IMG/VR virus record: IMGVR_UViG_3300045940_000156
Span: 1 to 28,650 of that record
From: a virus
Length of the DNA: 28,650 nucleotides
Direction: 5' to 3' (one strand)
Below the pieces are notes generated by a model. It searched no databases. It worked only from the letters and a program-made list of their open reading frames with translations, and was not told where the DNA came from. The stretch's first letter is position 1. Every line of letters starts with the position of its first letter. A program made the position numbers and the translations under genes. Shown here piece by piece: positions 1,726 through 28,526 of the stretch.

Positions 1726-3420
1726 TCAGAGCAACGCGGGTTGTGGGTCTGTCCCTTTCTGACGCCGTCCAGCCTGGGGAAAGGTCACGGAGGGAGCGTA
1801 GCGCGGATACTGCACCGGTTTGCCTTGGAGCAACTCGGCAATGGTCAGGAGCTGGAGGCGTGGAAACTGCTGCTGCGGAAAATCTGTCGGGACGTAGAAA
1901 CCCGCGGCGGCTGCTTCCTGGCGCATGGGCTTCGTCGGCTCGTTGAGGGTCACCAAGACCCCGATGGCCGCTTGCTCCCGCTGCAACACTCCGGCCAGGT
2001 CGCGCACATAGGAGGCATTGACGTGGCCGCTTTTGACCTGGACCACGATGCGCTTGGGCTTCCCGCTCTGGTCATCGCGAAAGAGGATTTCCCCATCGAC
2101 CCCGCGATCCGCGCCCTTTTTCTTGTCCTGTGCCGGGCGGGCCTCGATCAGGTCGAGCGCCCACCATTCAAACTGGTAGCGATTGTGCTGTGCCAGAGCC
2201 TGGGCACTGGCCACGTCCTTGGGGACACCGATCACCTCATACGGGGCGAGGTCCTTGGGAAAGGTGGTCTCCAACCGGTGTTTCATGATGGTCATGGCGA
2301 TATGGGTGATATCGATTCCAATCCAGCGCCGGTTGAGGCGCTCGGAGACGGCAATCGCCGTGCCACAGCCGCAAAAGGGGTCGAGCACCACGTCACCCTC
2401 GTTGCTGCTGGCTTTGATGATGCGCTCCAAGAGCGTCTCGGGTTTCTGCGTTGGATAGCCCATACGCTCTTTGTCTTTGGCGGAAAGCGGGGCGATGTCG
2501 TTGATCATGTCTTGGATAAGCATGCCTTCCATGTCATCCAGATACCGCTTGAATCCTGGCACGCCGCCTTGCTTTTCCGGCCAATAGACTCGTCCCATCT
2601 GGTCCAAAGATGCCAAAGCCTCCAGGGGAGATTTGGGGAGGTTCTCAAGACCGGGTATGTTCCGTGGAATAGCCCAGTGTCTCCCCTTTGCGGTAGGATC
2701 ACATCCTTTCCACGGCAATCCAGACTCACCACTGCGTGTTCCAGCCCCTGTCAAATCGCCGACCCTGAATCGCCGCCCATCACGGTCTTTATAGCGATAA
2801 AAGGTCTCAAGGTATTTTGGGTCATATTCCTGATGGACTCTATTCCATGTAAAACTTTCAGAGCCGGTATAGAACAAAATGATGTCATGGATTGGTCCCC
2901 ATCGTTTCGCGGCATTATGGGCACTCGTGCGCTTCCAGACGATTTCGTTCTGGAAGTGCATCGGGCCAAAGATAGCGTCCATCACCATCTTTAAGTAATG
3001 ACTGGCGGTCGGATCACAATGCAGATACAAGCTCCCAGTCGACTTCAGCACCCGGTGCAGTTCCACAAGCCGGGGTGTCATCATGGTGAGATAGGCCAGC
3101 ATGTCCGTATTCCCCAGGCACTCCCGGAGAGCTGAGAGCAGTTTCGCCACTTTGGCTGGCCCCCGCGTGACGACATCCCAATAGGTCTGCTCGGATTCCT
3201 GGCCCCAGTGCCAGGTATCGTCAAACGCGGTAATTTGCGCTGCGGACTTCTCGCCGCTGTGTTCGCCGAAGAGCACATTGTACGTGGCGTTGGAGTTGAA
3301 CGGCGGGTCGAGATAAATCAGATCGACGCTGTCGTCAGCAATGTGCGAGCGGAGAATCTGTAAGTTATCCCCAAAATAGAGCGTGTTGGTCCATGCGGAC
3401 GGGGGCTGTGTGGCTTTCAT
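1726..3420 (-). CDS. DNA N6-adenine/N4-cytosine methyltransferase fused to an Mrr-like PD-(D/E)XK nuclease domain
   Basis: This 564-residue protein opens with a beta-class amino-methyltransferase: catalytic motif IV DPPF at 38-41, GYPTQKP at 321-327 and the AdoMet-binding motif DPFCGCGT at 347-354. That order (IV before I) matches type III Mod and related enzymes. After about residue 415 a second domain shows D442 in DRGVDGE, then VVQVKSG with Q461 and K463. This is the D...QxK signature of Mrr-type restriction endonuclease folds. One chain may therefore both methylate and cut, as in type IIG-like enzymes, or the nuclease-like domain may only bind DNA. The ATG overlaps the stop of the upstream HIRAN gene by 4 nt (ATGA). 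Target sequence unknown. Confidence 0.85.
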   Translation of the reverse strand: MKATQPPSAWTNTLYFGDNLQILRSHIADDSVDLIYLDPPFNSNATYNVLFGEHSGEKSAAQITAFDDTWHWGQESEQTYWDVVTRGPAKVAKLLSALRECLGNTDMLAYLTMMTPRLVELHRVLKSTGSLYLHCDPTASHYLKMVMDAIFGPMHFQNEIVWKRTSAHNAAKRWGPIHDIILFYTGSESFTWNRVHQEYDPKYLETFYRYKDRDGRRFRVGDLTGAGTRSGESGLPWKGCDPTAKGRHWAIPRNIPGLENLPKSPLEALASLDQMGRVYWPEKQGGVPGFKRYLDDMEGMLIQDMINDIAPLSAKDKERMGYPTQKPETLLERIIKASSNEGDVVLDPFCGCGTAIAVSERLNRRWIGIDITHIAMTIMKHRLETTFPKDLAPYEVIGVPKDVASAQALAQHNRYQFEWWALDLIEARPAQDKKKGADRGVDGEILFRDDQSGKPKRIVVQVKSGHVNASYVRDLAGVLQREQAAIGVLVTLNEPTKPMRQEAAAAGFYVPTDFPQQQFPRLQLLTIAELLQGKPVQYPRYAPSVTFPQAGRRQKGTDPQPALL

Positions 3421-22069: not shown

Positions 22070-25000
22070 ATGGAACTCGTCTTGCATGGCGTCGACAGTA
22101 CACGACGCGTGTATGGCTACAATCCCGCGCAGAAAACGCTTGGCGCGATCATGCACGCGCATCATGACGCGGTCCTGGTCTGTCGTGTCAATGGCGTGCT
22201 GGTCGAGGACTGGCAGACGTACACGCCACAGTCACACGATACGATCGCGCTGTGGATGCGTCCTGGACTGGGATCGGAACTCGCCGCAGCGCTGATCGCT
22301 GCGCTTATTACGTCGATTGTGTCGTTTGGGATCTCATACGGACTGGGCTTGCTGCTGCAAAACAAGCCGGACCCGACCCGTCAGCAACGCAACGAGGACA
22401 CGTTTGGCATTGCGGGCTTGTCCAACACGATCGCAGTCGGGACGCCCAAAGTCCTCGTGTATGGGACGCGTCGCGTGTTTGGACACATCATTGGGACGCA
22501 AGTCAGCGCGTATGTACGCGGCATGGAGTTTAGCATCCTCTATTTCATGGGCGACGGCGAAGTGGAGTCGCTCACGAACATCGAGATCAACGAGATCCCG
22601 ATTGCGCAATTTCCTGGCGCATCGTTTGTGACGCGGACGGGCACGGACCCGCAAGACGCGATCGCGCAATGGACGTGGCCTGTGCAGGTCTATTACGATG
22701 GACGCGAGCTGGCGTTGCAACAAGCGATCGTGTATCAGACACGCAGCGCCAGTATTAACGACATCACCCTCATTGTATCCGTTCCCTATTTGCAGACGAT
22801 ACGCGCCAACACGCATAACAGCTTTCGCGACCCTGGCGAGATGCGCTTTCGTATCGAGACAAAGCGTCTGGAGGGCGATGCATGGCATACGGAACGCTTT
22901 GGCGGCAATGCCTATTTTCGCATGCATGGCACAGTAACCCACGTGACGTTTGCCGAGATCCATCTTGTTATGGCGATCAAAGCGCAATGGCAAGTCCGCG
23001 TCACGCTCATCGATAACAGCAAGAACGATCAACGACCGAACGCCAATCTGTACAACGTGCAAGAGCTGGAACGCGGCGGCACAGCGCGGACGTATCCTCA
23101 CAGCGCGCTACTCTCGATCTCTGGTGTTGCGTCCGCACAGATTACCTCGTTTGAAAGCATGAAAGCATCGGCGCTTGTCAATGGACGACGTGTCCTCACC
23201 TGGAACGGCGCGACGTATACGCGTCGTTTTACACGCAATCGTGCTTGGGTCATTCGTGACATTGTGACCGATCCCCGCGTTGGCATGGGCCATCGTATTC
23301 CGCCAAGCCTCTGGGACGACGATGCAGCGTTGAGCGCTGCCACCTATTACATGGGCGAGATCGCTGGCGAAGCACGCGACTATTGCGATGTCGTGATCAA
23401 TCAACGTCGACCAGCATGGGACTGGATACGTGAGCTGGCGATTGAGGGCAACGCTGCGCTCGTGGCATCACAGGGCAAGTTGAAATTGCTCATCGATCGT
23501 CCGCAGACAGCGCGTCGTGCGTTCAGCAATCCTGGCAACATGGCAGACAATTCGGTGTCGTCCAGTCTGGGCAGCACGGGCGACGTGCCAAACACCATAC
23601 GGGGCGAGTTCACCGACGCGTCGCGCAACTATCGTCTGTCTATCCTGGAAGTGCAAGCGGCGGACATGGGCGGCGAGTTGCTCAAAGAAGCGACGATAAG
23701 TCTCAAGTCGATCGTACGCCCCTCGCAAGCGCAGCGCTCGTTGTCCTACGCGCTCAAGAAACAGCGCTTGCAACAGCGTCGCTGGACATGGCGCAGTCCG
23801 CTCACAGGCATGCCTAGCGAGCCGTTTGACGTGGTACGTCTTGGCTATCTCACCGCAACGCAGCAACGCGGGGTCGAGGGCTTTCTGCAAGCGGGATCGA
23901 CGGGCTTGCGACTTGTTCTCGATCAACTTGTGGCGTTGGAACTCAACGAGACGTATGAAGTCGTGATCGTCTTGCAGCGCAACAATCACATGATGTCACG
24001 CACCTTTATTGCGGAAGCGACGCGACGCCAACACACGATCGACGTTGCGCCCGCGCTGGAGCAAGTGCCACAAGCGGGCGATCTCTATTTGCTTGGTCGA
24101 CTGGCGCGCTCGATGACAACCGTGATGCTGGAGAAATTGGAACTGAACACGCAGGACGACACCTATACGATCTCAGGCGTTGAGTATCGCAGCGAAATAT
24201 ACGACACGTCTGGCACGGGGGCTGTACCAAGCACGATCAAAGCGTTTCATGACTTTCCGGCCATGCACGCACAGGACGCCACAACACGCTACCATGCGTC
24301 CTATCTGATCGATCCCGTGACGCCCATGCAGACGCTTGCTGTCGAGCCGTGGCCGGGCGCGCAACTCTTTCGCTCACGTGATGTCGAGCCAGACTATGAG
24401 CTGTCCTATCAGGGCGCACCGTTGCCATGCTTCGGCGCTGCGCTCACAACGCTTGGCGCAGCGCTGCCCCAGCGTACGGATCTCGCCAGCACTGTCGACG
24501 TCCATGTGGACAATGGCATGTTGACGACGATCACGGCGCACGAAATGCAACTTGGATTCAATCTGCTCTTTCTTGGACAAGAACTCCTGCAATTTCGCAT
24601 CGCGACATCGCTGGGATCTGGCAACTATCGTCTGAGCCAGTTACGACGCGGACGACGCGGCACAGAATGGGCGACCACAACGCACAGCACGGGCGAGACG
24701 TGCTTGCTCGTCGGTACGGGCATTTTCACGCGTGACGTCCTCCGCGTCGAGCGCGATCGCGCCCGCAATTGGAAAAGTCCCAGCATCGGCCAGGACGTCC
24801 TTGACGTGCCAGCGACAGCGTACGCTGTGGCGTCGCGCAACTTGCAACCCTGGACGCCTGGCAGCGCACGAGGACAACGCCTGGTCGATGGCACCTGGGT
24901 CCTGTCCTGGCGTGGTCGAGCGCGCTTTCTTGGCGCATGGGTCGACTTACAAGAAGCGCTGCCCGACTATGACGTGCACACGTATCGTCTGACGATTTTT

Positions 25001-25213
25001 GGCGACAGCACGCGAGCGACGATCGTCCATGACGTCGAGCTGGGACAGTCGATGGACTATCAAGCGCTGCAAACGTATCAATACGCCAGCGCGCAACAAG
25101 CGGCGGACTTTGGCAGCGTCCAGAACACACTCTACTGGACGCTGCAACAAGTGGGAACCGATGATGTCAGTGTTGCGCCACCACTTACCAGCACAGCGGG
25201 CGAGGGTACGTGA
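22070..25213 (+). CDS. Tail tip host-specificity protein, gpJ-like, with gpI-like N-terminus
   Basis: This 1,047-residue protein is the central tail fibre/receptor-binding tip. Residues 1-66 form a ubiquitin-like opening (a MELVLHG strand, then VNGVLVEDWQTYTPQSHDTI). Residues 67-97 are hydrophobic (AAALIAALITSIVSFGISYG), as in lambda gpI, which seems to be fused here to J. Residues about 115-400 carry the conserved VGTPKVLVYGTRRVFG and INEIPIAQF blocks. The rest alternates fibronectin-like and beta domains. The start follows the gpK-like stop by 8 nt, with AGGACGCACA before the ATG. The C-terminal part, which usually sets host range, has no recognisable motif. The stop is 2 nt from the end of the opposing HNH gene. 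Confidence 0.88.
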   Translation: MELVLHGVDSTRRVYGYNPAQKTLGAIMHAHHDAVLVCRVNGVLVEDWQTYTPQSHDTIALWMRPGLGSELAAALIAALITSIVSFGISYGLGLLLQNKPDPTRQQRNEDTFGIAGLSNTIAVGTPKVLVYGTRRVFGHIIGTQVSAYVRGMEFSILYFMGDGEVESLTNIEINEIPIAQFPGASFVTRTGTDPQDAIAQWTWPVQVYYDGRELALQQAIVYQTRSASINDITLIVSVPYLQTIRANTHNSFRDPGEMRFRIETKRLEGDAWHTERFGGNAYFRMHGTVTHVTFAEIHLVMAIKAQWQVRVTLIDNSKNDQRPNANLYNVQELERGGTARTYPHSALLSISGVASAQITSFESMKASALVNGRRVLTWNGATYTRRFTRNRAWVIRDIVTDPRVGMGHRIPPSLWDDDAALSAATYYMGEIAGEARDYCDVVINQRRPAWDWIRELAIEGNAALVASQGKLKLLIDRPQTARRAFSNPGNMADNSVSSSLGSTGDVPNTIRGEFTDASRNYRLSILEVQAADMGGELLKEATISLKSIVRPSQAQRSLSYALKKQRLQQRRWTWRSPLTGMPSEPFDVVRLGYLTATQQRGVEGFLQAGSTGLRLVLDQLVALELNETYEVVIVLQRNNHMMSRTFIAEATRRQHTIDVAPALEQVPQAGDLYLLGRLARSMTTVMLEKLELNTQDDTYTISGVEYRSEIYDTSGTGAVPSTIKAFHDFPAMHAQDATTRYHASYLIDPVTPMQTLAVEPWPGAQLFRSRDVEPDYELSYQGAPLPCFGAALTTLGAALPQRTDLASTVDVHVDNGMLTTITAHEMQLGFNLLFLGQELLQFRIATSLGSGNYRLSQLRRGRRGTEWATTTHSTGETCLLVGTGIFTRDVLRVERDRARNWKSPSIGQDVLDVPATAYAVASRNLQPWTPGSARGQRLVDGTWVLSWRGRARFLGAWVDLQEALPDYDVHTYRLTIFGDSTRATIVHDVELGQSMDYQALQTYQYASAQQAADFGSVQNTLYWTLQQVGTDDVSVAPPLTSTAGEGT

Positions 25214-25215
25214 TG

Positions 25216-25947
25216 CTAGAGCAGATGTTTCCAAGATTTCCCCGTTTGGATACGCCACACGTTGCTAGACGAAATCCCAAAACGCCGCGCTACACTCCTG
25301 GGACGTTCTTGGCCTGTGAGTCGTCGAATCTCTTGCACAGCGTCGTCGGTCAGTTTCGCCATACCGTGTTGTGTGCCCTGAAAGATCTTGTGACGACCCT
25401 TCGCGACTTTATCCGCGCTGTTCTCTGCGTGTGTCCCAAGGAACAAATGCAGAGGATTGCAGCATGCTCGGACATCGCAACGATGCAACACGAACTGTCC
25501 AGGGGGAATCGTGCCGCCTGCCAGAACGAACGCAATGCGATGCGCTCCGGTTATGGTCCGGCGTTTGTTGACGGTTAGATGAAGCGTCCCATAGCCATGA
25601 CGTGTATGGCCTTGCCACAACCAACATCCATAGGGGCCTTGTGATTGATCAAGCAGCGTCAGGAAGCGGTCAAGCTGGGTACTGATTTGCATGTGGGCAG
25701 GATTACAACACAGCTTATTGTGACACAAGAGACGAACAATCCGCGTGCGTGGAACAGCACGGCCATGCGTGAGTTCGTAGGCCATGCGAAAGACCGAGAC
25801 AAACCGAGCAGGATTGCTCTGCCGCGCAAATTGCCCGTAGCCGTTTTTGGGATCGATTGCTCCTGTCCATATCCAGCACGTAGAAGGGTTGTCGCGGTAC
25901 AAGACGTGCTGCCAAAACCGATCAGCAAGAGAACGTGGACGTACCAT
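25216..25947 (-). CDS. HNH homing-type endonuclease with two HNH_3-like domains and an HTH tail
   Basis: This 243-residue protein lies antisense to the late operon. Residues 24-87 and 108-180 are two HNH_3-like units (a CW.W.G....GYG opening and a C.NP.H close). In unit 2 AHRIAF and LHRCDVRACCNPLHL are intact. In unit 1 the first His position reads FRMAY and the motif reads LLCHNKLCCNPAH, so it has lost expected residues and is probably inactive. Residues 197-240 (KLTDDAVQEIRRLTG, then FGISSSNVWRIQTGK) are a helix-turn-helix common in these enzymes. Such free-standing endonucleases spread themselves by cutting uninvaded copies. AGGAGG on the minus strand precedes ATG 25947. The gene interrupts the tail operon. 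Confidence 0.82.
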   Translation of the reverse strand: MVRPRSLADRFWQHVLYRDNPSTCWIWTGAIDPKNGYGQFARQSNPARFVSVFRMAYELTHGRAVPRTRIVRLLCHNKLCCNPAHMQISTQLDRFLTLLDQSQGPYGCWLWQGHTRHGYGTLHLTVNKRRTITGAHRIAFVLAGGTIPPGQFVLHRCDVRACCNPLHLFLGTHAENSADKVAKGRHKIFQGTQHGMAKLTDDAVQEIRRLTGQERPRSVARRFGISSSNVWRIQTGKSWKHLL

Positions 25948-25972: not shown

Positions 25973-26077
25973 AATGATTCCTGAATGCGGCGTGTAGCAA
26001 ACCCGGTCAGGAAGCCAGGCTTGTCGGTACAACTAGCTAGGAAGTACCTATGCTACACAATTACAATAATATAACTC

Positions 26078-26105
26078 GAAAAGATTGCTTGCAGGTAATC
26101 TTTTC
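26078..26105 (+). terminator. AT-rich hairpin before the tail fibre gene
   Basis: GAAAAGATT (26078-26086) pairs perfectly with AATCTTTTC (26097-26105), a 9-bp stem with a 10-nt loop (GCTTGCAGGT). It sits in the AT-rich 177-bp gap between the HNH endonuclease and the tail fibre, ending 4 nt before a perfect Shine-Dalgarno. Only four T lie at its 3' edge, within the stem, so it is either a weak terminator or a cis element for the fibre mRNA. No good promoter was seen in the gap. Confidence 0.45.
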
Positions 26106-26109
26106 CTGG

Positions 26110-26247
26110 AGGAGGTGATGCCACATGCCCGTCAGTGAATTCCGCTCCTTGGAACTGATGGACATTTGACTCGGTTCGCTCGGCAAAGAAACGATATTCA
26201 ACGACGGCATCAACAATCTGTCGCGTGGTGTTTCGGGCTTTCACATT
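26110..26247 (+). promoter_or_regulatory. Perfect Shine-Dalgarno and 5' fibre frame interrupted by an in-frame TGA
   Basis: AGGAGGTGAT (26110-26119) is a full 10-nt complement to the 3' end of 16S rRNA. ATG 26125 opens a frame reading MPVSEFRSLELMDI, then TGA at 26167-26169. The same frame continues without further stop (LGSLGKETIFNDGINNLSRG) straight into the long fibre frame. ATG 26125 is exactly 41 codons before the GTG at 26248. The region therefore looks like the real N-terminus of the fibre broken by one nonsense codon, or a read-through site (TGA followed by C, a leaky context). Confidence 0.6.
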
Positions 26248-28257
26248 GTGTCAGTCGATGGTTTGAGTGTGCCATTGGAACTCGCCACAGACATTGACGA
26301 CTTGTCCTTGTATGCGGTGCTGCGCTTCACGGGCACACTCATCCAAAATACGGTCGTGATCGCGCCAGGACGCGCCAGGGTGTATGTCCTGGAAAACGCC
26401 ACAACGGGCGCGTATACGCTGACGTTCACGACCAGCACGGGCACGGGCTTGTCGCTCGCGCCCGCGTCAACAGTGTTTGCCTATTCGGACAGCGTCAACG
26501 TGTATGCCATTGGCGAGTCGTCTGCAAGCGCGCTGCCGATCGCGTCGGAATCGATCGCGGGCATCACCCGCTATGGCACGTCTGACGAGACGATTGACGG
26601 ACTGTTGAACAGCGTTGCCGTCACGCCCGTCGGACTCAGCGCACGTCTGGCAGCGCTGCCAGGACCGCCAGCGGCGACAACGAGCGTTGCGGGTATCGCG
26701 TCCTTGGCGACGTCCGCTGAGGGCATCACGGGCACGAACAACACAAAGATTGTCACGCCGCTCGTGCTGCAAAGTAAGATCAACGCACTTCCTCTGGCAA
26801 GCGAGACAGTCGTTGGCTTATCAGAACGAGCGACGCAAGCGGAGACTATCACAGGGACGGATACGACGCGCTTTGTCACCCCGGCCACGTTGCAAGCGAA
26901 AATCAATACCCTTCCTGTCATACCGATAAGCGGGACGGCGTACAGTGTCGTGCGAATTCCGAGCACGGGCACGGGGCAGGAAGCCACGCCAAATCTCGTC
27001 ACTGGCAGTAGTACCGGCTGGCTCGGGATCGGCGCCACCACGGCACCACAAGCGGCGCTGCACATTATCTCCAGCGTGGGGTTCTTGCTCGATCGCTATA
27101 GCGATGACATTACTTATCCCCCGTTCGTCTCGCGCAAGAATCGCGGCACATCGGGCACGCCCCAACGTCTTCAGGCAAACGATCGAATTCTTGGGCTTCA
27201 GGGACAGGGGTATGTGCGCTCGGCGGATAATACGAGTGACGCCCCGATAACGCTCAGCGCCATCATGTCGCGGGTGCGCAACGTGGATGCCCAGGGGCGG
27301 GCGGGCGCTGACCTGTCGTTCTGGACCAGCACTGATACCTCAGCGGGCATCACGGAAAAAATCGTGATGCTGCCGTCGGGCTATCTGGGCCTCGGCCTGG
27401 GCACGCTTATCGATCCCGTCGCACCCCTGCATATTGCCAGCGTGAATACGACCAGCGGGCAACTGCTCCTGGCCTCGCAAAAGGTGCAAGTCACGGCGGG
27501 CATGGTCGTGAGCGGAGTGGATTTCTGGAGCAACGATGGCAATCTGCCGAGTCCTGGGCAACTGGTGGCCTATGTGCGAGCCGTGGCGCAGGAATCGCAT
27601 ACGCCGACCACGCTCGGTACGTCCTTGAGCATTGCCGTCACGCGCCAGGGCACAGCGATCGAGACGGAAGTAGGACGGTTTGACCAGTTCGGCAATCTTC
27701 GTCTGGGTGGTGCCACCTTGTCCACGGCCCTGCAAAATGGGCTGACGCTCAAGAGCGGCGTGGCGGCCACGGCGACGGGCACTGATCAGGTGGCGCTGTG
27801 GACAGCGGATACGGGAGGCGTCGCAAATAAAGCCGGACTGCACCTGCGCAGCGAGGACGGCACCAGCCATGTGCTCGGCGACGTGGTCGGGATCGGCACA
27901 CTCTGCGCCGCCACGCTCGGCCTCGGGGCCTATCAGGCGCTCAATGTGAACGGCTCGCTCATGTTTGTCGGGGCGAGCAGCGTGCAGGAGCGGACCATGA
28001 TTCGCCTGGAGCCGACCTACGTGGTCAGTACCGACGCGACCCGGACGGCCCGACTGCGCTTTATTGCCTTTGATGCGACGGCAGCTCGGGAGTGTTTGCG
28101 CATTGAGGCGTCGGGCACAGTTCCCTTGATTTCCTTCTTCGGTGTGGCGTCCGCCGCGCGGCAAACGGTGCCTGCGGCCGCCACCGATGCCGCGACCACG
28201 CAGGCGTTAGTGAACGCCTTACGGACCGCACTCATTACCTTCGGCCTCTGCCAATAA
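26248..28257 (+). CDS. Tail fibre protein
   Basis: The uninterrupted frame encodes 669 residues from a GTG with no good ribosome site; the natural start is probably ATG 26125, upstream of an in-frame TGA. Residues about 1-95 form a beta-rich virion-attachment region (LRFTGTLIQNTVVIAPGRA). Residues 99-138, 142-183 and 184-224 are three copies of the phage tail-fibre repeat (Phage_fiber_2 type: A.AG...LATS.E...GTD...VTP..L). From 225 on there are WLGIGATTAPQAALHI and YLGLGLGT..DPVAPLHIAS motifs of trimeric fibre shafts with receptor-binding ends. No intramolecular chaperone tail is seen. Base use changes at about 26,920, at the repeat/shaft boundary. It determines host binding. Confidence 0.8.
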   Translation: MSVDGLSVPLELATDIDDLSLYAVLRFTGTLIQNTVVIAPGRARVYVLENATTGAYTLTFTTSTGTGLSLAPASTVFAYSDSVNVYAIGESSASALPIASESIAGITRYGTSDETIDGLLNSVAVTPVGLSARLAALPGPPAATTSVAGIASLATSAEGITGTNNTKIVTPLVLQSKINALPLASETVVGLSERATQAETITGTDTTRFVTPATLQAKINTLPVIPISGTAYSVVRIPSTGTGQEATPNLVTGSSTGWLGIGATTAPQAALHIISSVGFLLDRYSDDITYPPFVSRKNRGTSGTPQRLQANDRILGLQGQGYVRSADNTSDAPITLSAIMSRVRNVDAQGRAGADLSFWTSTDTSAGITEKIVMLPSGYLGLGLGTLIDPVAPLHIASVNTTSGQLLLASQKVQVTAGMVVSGVDFWSNDGNLPSPGQLVAYVRAVAQESHTPTTLGTSLSIAVTRQGTAIETEVGRFDQFGNLRLGGATLSTALQNGLTLKSGVAATATGTDQVALWTADTGGVANKAGLHLRSEDGTSHVLGDVVGIGTLCAATLGLGAYQALNVNGSLMFVGASSVQERTMIRLEPTYVVSTDATRTARLRFIAFDATAARECLRIEASGTVPLISFFGVASAARQTVPAAATDAATTQALVNALRTALITFGLCQ

Positions 28258-28268
28258 AGGAGCATCAG

Positions 28269-28526
28269 GTGGCACAAGATAGCGATTGGATTAGCAGGTA
28301 TAGGCAGGCCACAACAGCATGGCTGCACGCGCTCGATGGGCTGCTCGCCCTGAACGGTCAGTATGTGGCTTTAGACTATGGGAACTCACTGACGGAGGAG
28401 GACTTCGCGGGAGCCAACAGTGACGTGGACAAAGAGGACATCACGGCGGCAGTGGCGTCGATCGACGCCATCAATACCCTGGTCCGGTCGGGACACGCCA
28501 CGAATCTGTATACCCTGATGCTTTAG
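28269..28526 (+). CDS. Small acidic protein after the tail fibre
   Basis: This 85-residue protein starts at GTG 28269 behind AAAGGAG (about 28257-28263). It looks all-helical: WISRYRQATTAWLHALDGLL, then an acidic middle (EEDFAGANSDVDKEDI) and a last helix (VASIDAINTLVRSGHATNLY). Small proteins of this type often follow fibre genes in siphophages, ahead of the lysis genes. No membrane segment is seen, so it is not a holin. Function unknown. Confidence 0.65.
   Translation: MAQDSDWISRYRQATTAWLHALDGLLALNGQYVALDYGNSLTEEDFAGANSDVDKEDITAAVASIDAINTLVRSGHATNLYTLML

Follow-up and report, generated by a model that had tools for sequence, protein, structure and literature searches.

The A1 protein of Q-beta is an extension of the coat protein that is made by UGA read-through. 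In lambda, the side tail fibre gene stf is known in a broken form. Lambda PaPa carries an stf frameshift (Hendrix and Duda 1992, as cited in PMC2762979), and 15 of 19 stf mutants of evolved lambda were frameshifts, reflecting repeated loss under selection (PMC2762979). Gene 60 of T4 contains a 50-nt insert near its start, beside the HNH gene mobA, which is bypassed by the ribosome and may have protected against cleavage (PMC3014915, PMC5009743). Furthermore, the sites cut by free-standing phage homing enzymes lie in neighbouring genes, often at a distance of hundreds of bp, and microhomology repair junctions have been reported in T4 (PMC2988022).

The window (the whole stretch of DNA analyzed here, a 28,650-base IMG/VR virus record) contains a fibre gene that shares traits with each of these systems. 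As with lambda stf, a siphophage fibre gene downstream of J has a broken frame while the rest of the gene is intact. Unlike lambda, where frameshifts are spread over much of the gene, all of the breaks found here, in an uncultured virus and its relatives, lie in codons 14-21 beside an HNH gene. Similar to T4 gene 60 and mobA, an HNH homing gene (window 25216-25947) adjoins a gene with a frame-breaking insert near its start, and one related contig (G022) has a stop directly after a take-off codon together with a matched landing codon. In contrast to T4, the inserts comprise 1, 6, and 8 nt rather than 50 and differ in each lineage, while the window has neither a matched landing codon nor a hairpin in the gap. 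The resemblance to Q-beta A1 is that a structural gene contains a UGA with a long open frame behind it; however, the UGA of the window is not conserved among relatives and interrupts the frame at codon 15 instead of following a complete protein.

Gene order and anatomy of the fibre gene

The window has a siphophage gene order of terminase, portal, protease, a further head gene, tape measure, J, HNH gene (opposite strand), and tail fibre, and its long structural genes other than the fibre are all intact. A trypsin-like serine protease domain is encoded at the edge of the contig (586-1644, + strand), and a DNA methylase (N6_N4_Mtase) fused to a C-terminal Mrr-like restriction domain at 1726-3420 (- strand). 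The features surrounding the fibre gene are as follows.

22070-25213, + strand: J-like central tail fibre / tail-tip protein, intact, 1047 aa (PHROG phrog_31 central tail fiber J, E = 8e-60)
25216-25947, - strand: HNH homing-endonuclease-like gene, intact, 243 aa, between J and fibre (Pfam HNH_3, E = 2.3e-18; zf-His_Me_endon, E = 3.6e-7)
25974-26065, + strand: conserved structured leader (helix of 25992-25998 with 26052-26058, two inner hairpins, pseudoknot of 25978-25984 with 26007-26013)
26079-26104, + strand: A+T-rich hairpin AAAAGATT...AATCTTTT, just 5' of the Shine-Dalgarno sequence, conserved with compensatory changes
26110-26119, + strand: Shine-Dalgarno sequence AGGAGGTGAT, perfect across 10 nt, with AGGAGG at 26110-26115; near-perfect in relatives
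26125-26169, + strand: start of the fibre frame, with ATG at 26125-26127, 14 codons (MPVSEFRSLELMDI), and TGA; conserved at the protein level
26167-26169, + strand: in-frame TGA, next base C (TGAC), within a stretch 2 codons longer than in relatives
26170-28257, + strand: remaining tail-fibre frame, 695 codons without further break, ending with TAA at 28257 (PHROG phrog_910 tail collar fiber, E = 2.2e-26 on the part from 26248)
28269-28526, + strand: small conserved gene 3' of the fibre, 85 aa, with homologues at the same position in relatives

An earlier note on this DNA had described a 10-nt perfect Shine-Dalgarno sequence, an ATG, 14 codons, TGA-C, and approximately 700 open codons; this anatomy was exact, with 695 codons counted. 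The sequence GGAGGTGAT occurs a single time in the window, both strands counted, compared to 0.16 occurrences expected by chance. As a tail-fibre gene downstream of J with an interrupted frame, the gene has the organization of a broken lambda Stf-like side tail fibre.

The leader element, a three-way helix with a pseudoknot, lies in the stretch that separates the start of the HNH gene from the Shine-Dalgarno sequence of the fibre; its outer helix and its pseudoknot have 7 bp each. Across its 26 pairs, 94.9% of cells were paired and 4 pairs were changed on both sides, compared to 0 in slid-partner controls. A model of the element (R1) matched only the three fibre leaders described below among 27 loci searched. 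No Rfam family matched, and beyond the known relatives a pattern scan of viral contigs returned only matches without the remaining structure. An HDV-like ribozyme was considered and rejected, since the 3' strand of the pseudoknot sits in an inner hairpin loop, which is not the HDV order, and Rfam gave no match. The predicted element could serve either the fibre or the HNH gene.

Different breaks in related fibres

Direct searches of viral contigs with the fibre or J returned no relatives, while a terminase query yielded four contigs with 79% identity. Fibre homologues were then located in G002 and G003, and a further contig (G022) was reached via two-sequence alignment. G002 and G003 are practically one virus from two samples, with 1 difference in more than 6 kb from the fibre start onward. 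A more distant fibre in G004 starts with an intact ATG and has no HNH neighbour, such that the comparison comprises three broken lineages (window, G003/G002, and G022) and one distant outgroup. Further searches of phages, viral contigs, and genomes for fibre relatives returned only the same lineages; three Novosphingobium/Sphingomonas loci gave a distant match to J only.

All three broken fibres begin with a strong Shine-Dalgarno sequence. The leader peptide of the window corresponds to VPVSEFRSIESMDIGSLGK and LPPVSEFRSCETMDIGSL in the relatives, which share the form PVSEFRSxExMDIGSL, and the continuation after the break, KETIFND[GA]..NLSRG.SG, is common to the three fibres. Between these conserved segments each lineage is broken differently. 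The fibre of G003 has one extra A, placing it one base out of frame, and the break is identical in the second sample (G002). In G022 the stretch is 8 nt longer, contains a TGA, and is out of frame, reading CTT TGAGG CTT, with the take-off codon CTT directly before TGA and the landing codon again CTT. All three breaks are confined to about 21 nt (codons 14-21), and no second stop or shift was detected in any of the fibres over 695, 702, and 595 codons. Each break is a true feature of its assembly, and no two lineages share the same one.

The earlier note had proposed comparing homologous fibres at codon 15. In this comparison the in-frame TGA of the window was absent from G003/G002 and G022, and no residue aligns with it, the relatives carrying frameshifts instead. 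Of the readings offered in the earlier note, a break in the fibre frame is supported, while read-through as a conserved programme is not; the note had overlooked the neighbouring HNH gene, the structured leader, and the 2 extra codons in the stretch holding the TGA. Taken alone, the TGA is a broken fibre allele; it may have come with the 2 extra codons or from a later point mutation.

The J gene of G022 is also split by a frame break, at approximately residue 660 (L051:5180-5240), such that both host-recognition genes of this contig are interrupted while its other matched genes are in frame. This contig may represent a decaying or defective prophage, or may carry errors.

Coding on both sides of the break

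Codon differences between the window and G003 were examined in all three frames. Before the TGA, 8 of 10 differing codons were synonymous in the fibre frame, whereas neither of the other two frames gave any. After the TGA, across 19 codons from KETIFND onward, 9 of 12 were synonymous in the fibre frame, compared to 0 and 1 in the other frames. Since the differences are mostly synonymous in the fibre frame only, both halves are coding. Furthermore, the GSL(G) motif belongs to the leader side of the break in G003 and G022, whereas the window has it on the fibre side. Together with coding on both sides, this makes one continuous ancestral fibre frame the simplest interpretation of the alignments. 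In a freely drifting gene, the absence of new stops would be expected to hold only to about 6-8% divergence; the lack of any other break in the conserved downstream frame therefore suggests that the breaks are recent or that the gene is still in use.

The adjacent HNH gene

The HNH protein of the window contains an HNH_3 domain with a zinc-binding loop, and its best matches are phage HNH endonucleases, a common group. It seemingly contains two tandem HNH-type repeats (two HNH_3 stretches; 25216-25947, - strand). A homologue was found in G022 at the same place, between J and fibre and on the opposite strand, while in G003/G002 only an N-terminal remnant of the gene is left, immediately behind the J stop (L035:3820-4010). 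No homologue was detected in the other 19 viral records searched. An HNH gene or its remnant thus adjoins all three broken fibres and is missing from G004, whose fibre starts intact. An intron spanning the HNH gene was rejected: in G022 the stop codons of HNH and J overlap, so that a 5' splice site could not fit between the two genes, and no Rfam intron was found.

Decoding of the in-frame UGA

UGA is an ordinary stop in this virus. The 24 main ORFs of the window end with 11 TGA, 8 TAG, and 5 TAA, in agreement with the earlier observation that other genes use normal stops and none needs UGA decoding. The idea of a UGA-reading host is contradicted within the window itself, where UGA terminates the J tail-tip gene and the terminase among others, and UGA reassignment was rejected on the same stop usage. 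UGA followed by C is the leakiest stop context, and this context is present. The following 50 or 100 nt contain no structure beyond chance. No hairpin was favoured in the 50 nt after the TGA (-4.9 kcal/mol, z = +1.15), consistent with the SECIS-like hairpin previously reported as absent. Without such a hairpin, and with no homologous residue at this position, selenocysteine was rejected. No tRNA genes (suppressor) were found in the window or in the scanned loci of relatives. A prfB-type +1 shift at ATTTGAC was discarded because it ends up in the wrong frame for the fibre, and internal fibre-frame starts were rejected since no suitable one was present in the window or G003. Conserved UGA read-through, selenocysteine insertion, and UGA reassignment are therefore not supported, because the relatives break differently at the same spot and lack this TGA.

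Recoded expression would fit G022 best, where CTT TGAGG CTT has the form of a stop-hop, and G003 moderately (+1 on AAAA). In the window, where ATT precedes the TGA and no matching landing codon lies downstream, it would amount only to plain leakage at UGA-C.

Explanations for the clustered breaks

The favored explanation, to which a probability of roughly 0.5 is assigned, is that independent frame breaks at a local hot spot abolish or strongly cut a lambda-Stf-like fibre, possibly as repair scars at an HNH target. The gene after J would be a side tail fibre whose ancestor, judging from the relatives, had one continuous frame from a strong Shine-Dalgarno sequence. Each of the three lineages would have broken this frame on its own in codons 14-21: the window through a TGA, G003 through a shift of one base, and G022 through an insertion of 8 nt. 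The break would stop most or all full-length fibre, like the stf frameshifts of laboratory lambda; leaky UGA-C could still yield a few per cent of product in the window. A local hot spot is suggested by the concentration of every break on a single short site adjoining an HNH homing gene; it would most likely stem from scars of end joining, or from selection of cut-resistant alleles, where the HNH enzyme has its target. For three positions drawn at random from 2000 nt, the probability of lying within 20 nt of each other is P = 3e-4, a value computed after seeing the data and from three lineages. Several observations run against this explanation. With a fibre frame that is long, open, and conserved beyond the break, the lesions must be recent or the gene still in use, G003 keeps its break despite loss of most of the HNH gene, G022 also has a frame break in J, and the lambda stf frameshifts are spread rather than focused.

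Continued use of the fibre would be accommodated if the insertions were tolerated, with recoding keeping fibre at useful levels through a different event in each lineage, namely UGA read-through in the window, a +1 slip on AAAA in G003, and a CTT-to-CTT stop-hop over TGAGG in G022. The strong start and conserved leader peptide, a downstream frame conserved without decay, the paired CTT codons of G022, the HNH gene or remnant beside each fibre, and the possibly protective bypassed insert of T4 (PMC3014915, PMC5009743) are all consistent with this explanation, yet it is tentative and clearly the less probable. No recoding signal is common to the three breaks, which require three different events; the window lacks both a matched landing codon and downstream structure; unprogrammed events of such kind are expected to be rare; and a matched CTT arises by chance about 1 in 64 times and could stem from microhomology. 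A fuller version, in which codons 14-21 are the HNH target, each lineage's insertion gives immunity to cutting, and fibre is still made by read-through, slip, or hop as in early T4-gene-60-like tolerated inserts, is more doubtful still. Slightly less probable again is the plain loss of a dispensable side fibre through unrelated mutations at coincidentally shared positions; lambda stf is readily lost by frameshift and J is broken too in G022, but the confinement of the breaks to about 21 nt in a gene of 2 kb (the post hoc P value above) and the lack of a second lesion in any copy argue against it.

The remaining explanations are improbable to varying degrees. Programmed UGA read-through or selenocysteine insertion for low fibre copy number, the former raised in the earlier note, would suit a UGA followed by C after a strong start, and is highly unlikely given that the homologues are frameshifted with neither the UGA nor an aligned residue, that no hairpin follows, and that tRNA genes are lacking. 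It is just as improbable that the locus comprises two cistrons, the leader peptide ending at the stop and the fibre being restarted downstream by reinitiation. In G022 a fibre-frame TTG does overlap the stop (TTGA), but no fibre-frame ATG, GTG, or TTG lies near the break in the window or G003, and the first candidate in the window (GTG at 26248) has no Shine-Dalgarno sequence and would lose the conserved KETIFND...NLSRG segment. A sequencing or assembly error at 26167, another of the earlier suggestions, is the least credible of all; although the window is a single metagenomic contig, an error fails to explain two relatives broken at the same spot, one identically in two samples, and the window's other long structural genes are intact.

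Significance

It is not the stop codon that merits attention at this locus, but that the same handful of codons has been broken repeatedly and independently next to a homing endonuclease gene. If plain loss is the explanation, the three lineages would represent a wild counterpart to the laboratory lambda stf frameshift. If the HNH enzyme does target the shared site, this group would show homing genes leaving frame-breaking scars in neighbouring genes, and would provide natural cases for testing ribosome tolerance of such scars, a proposed origin of the T4 gene 60 bypass.
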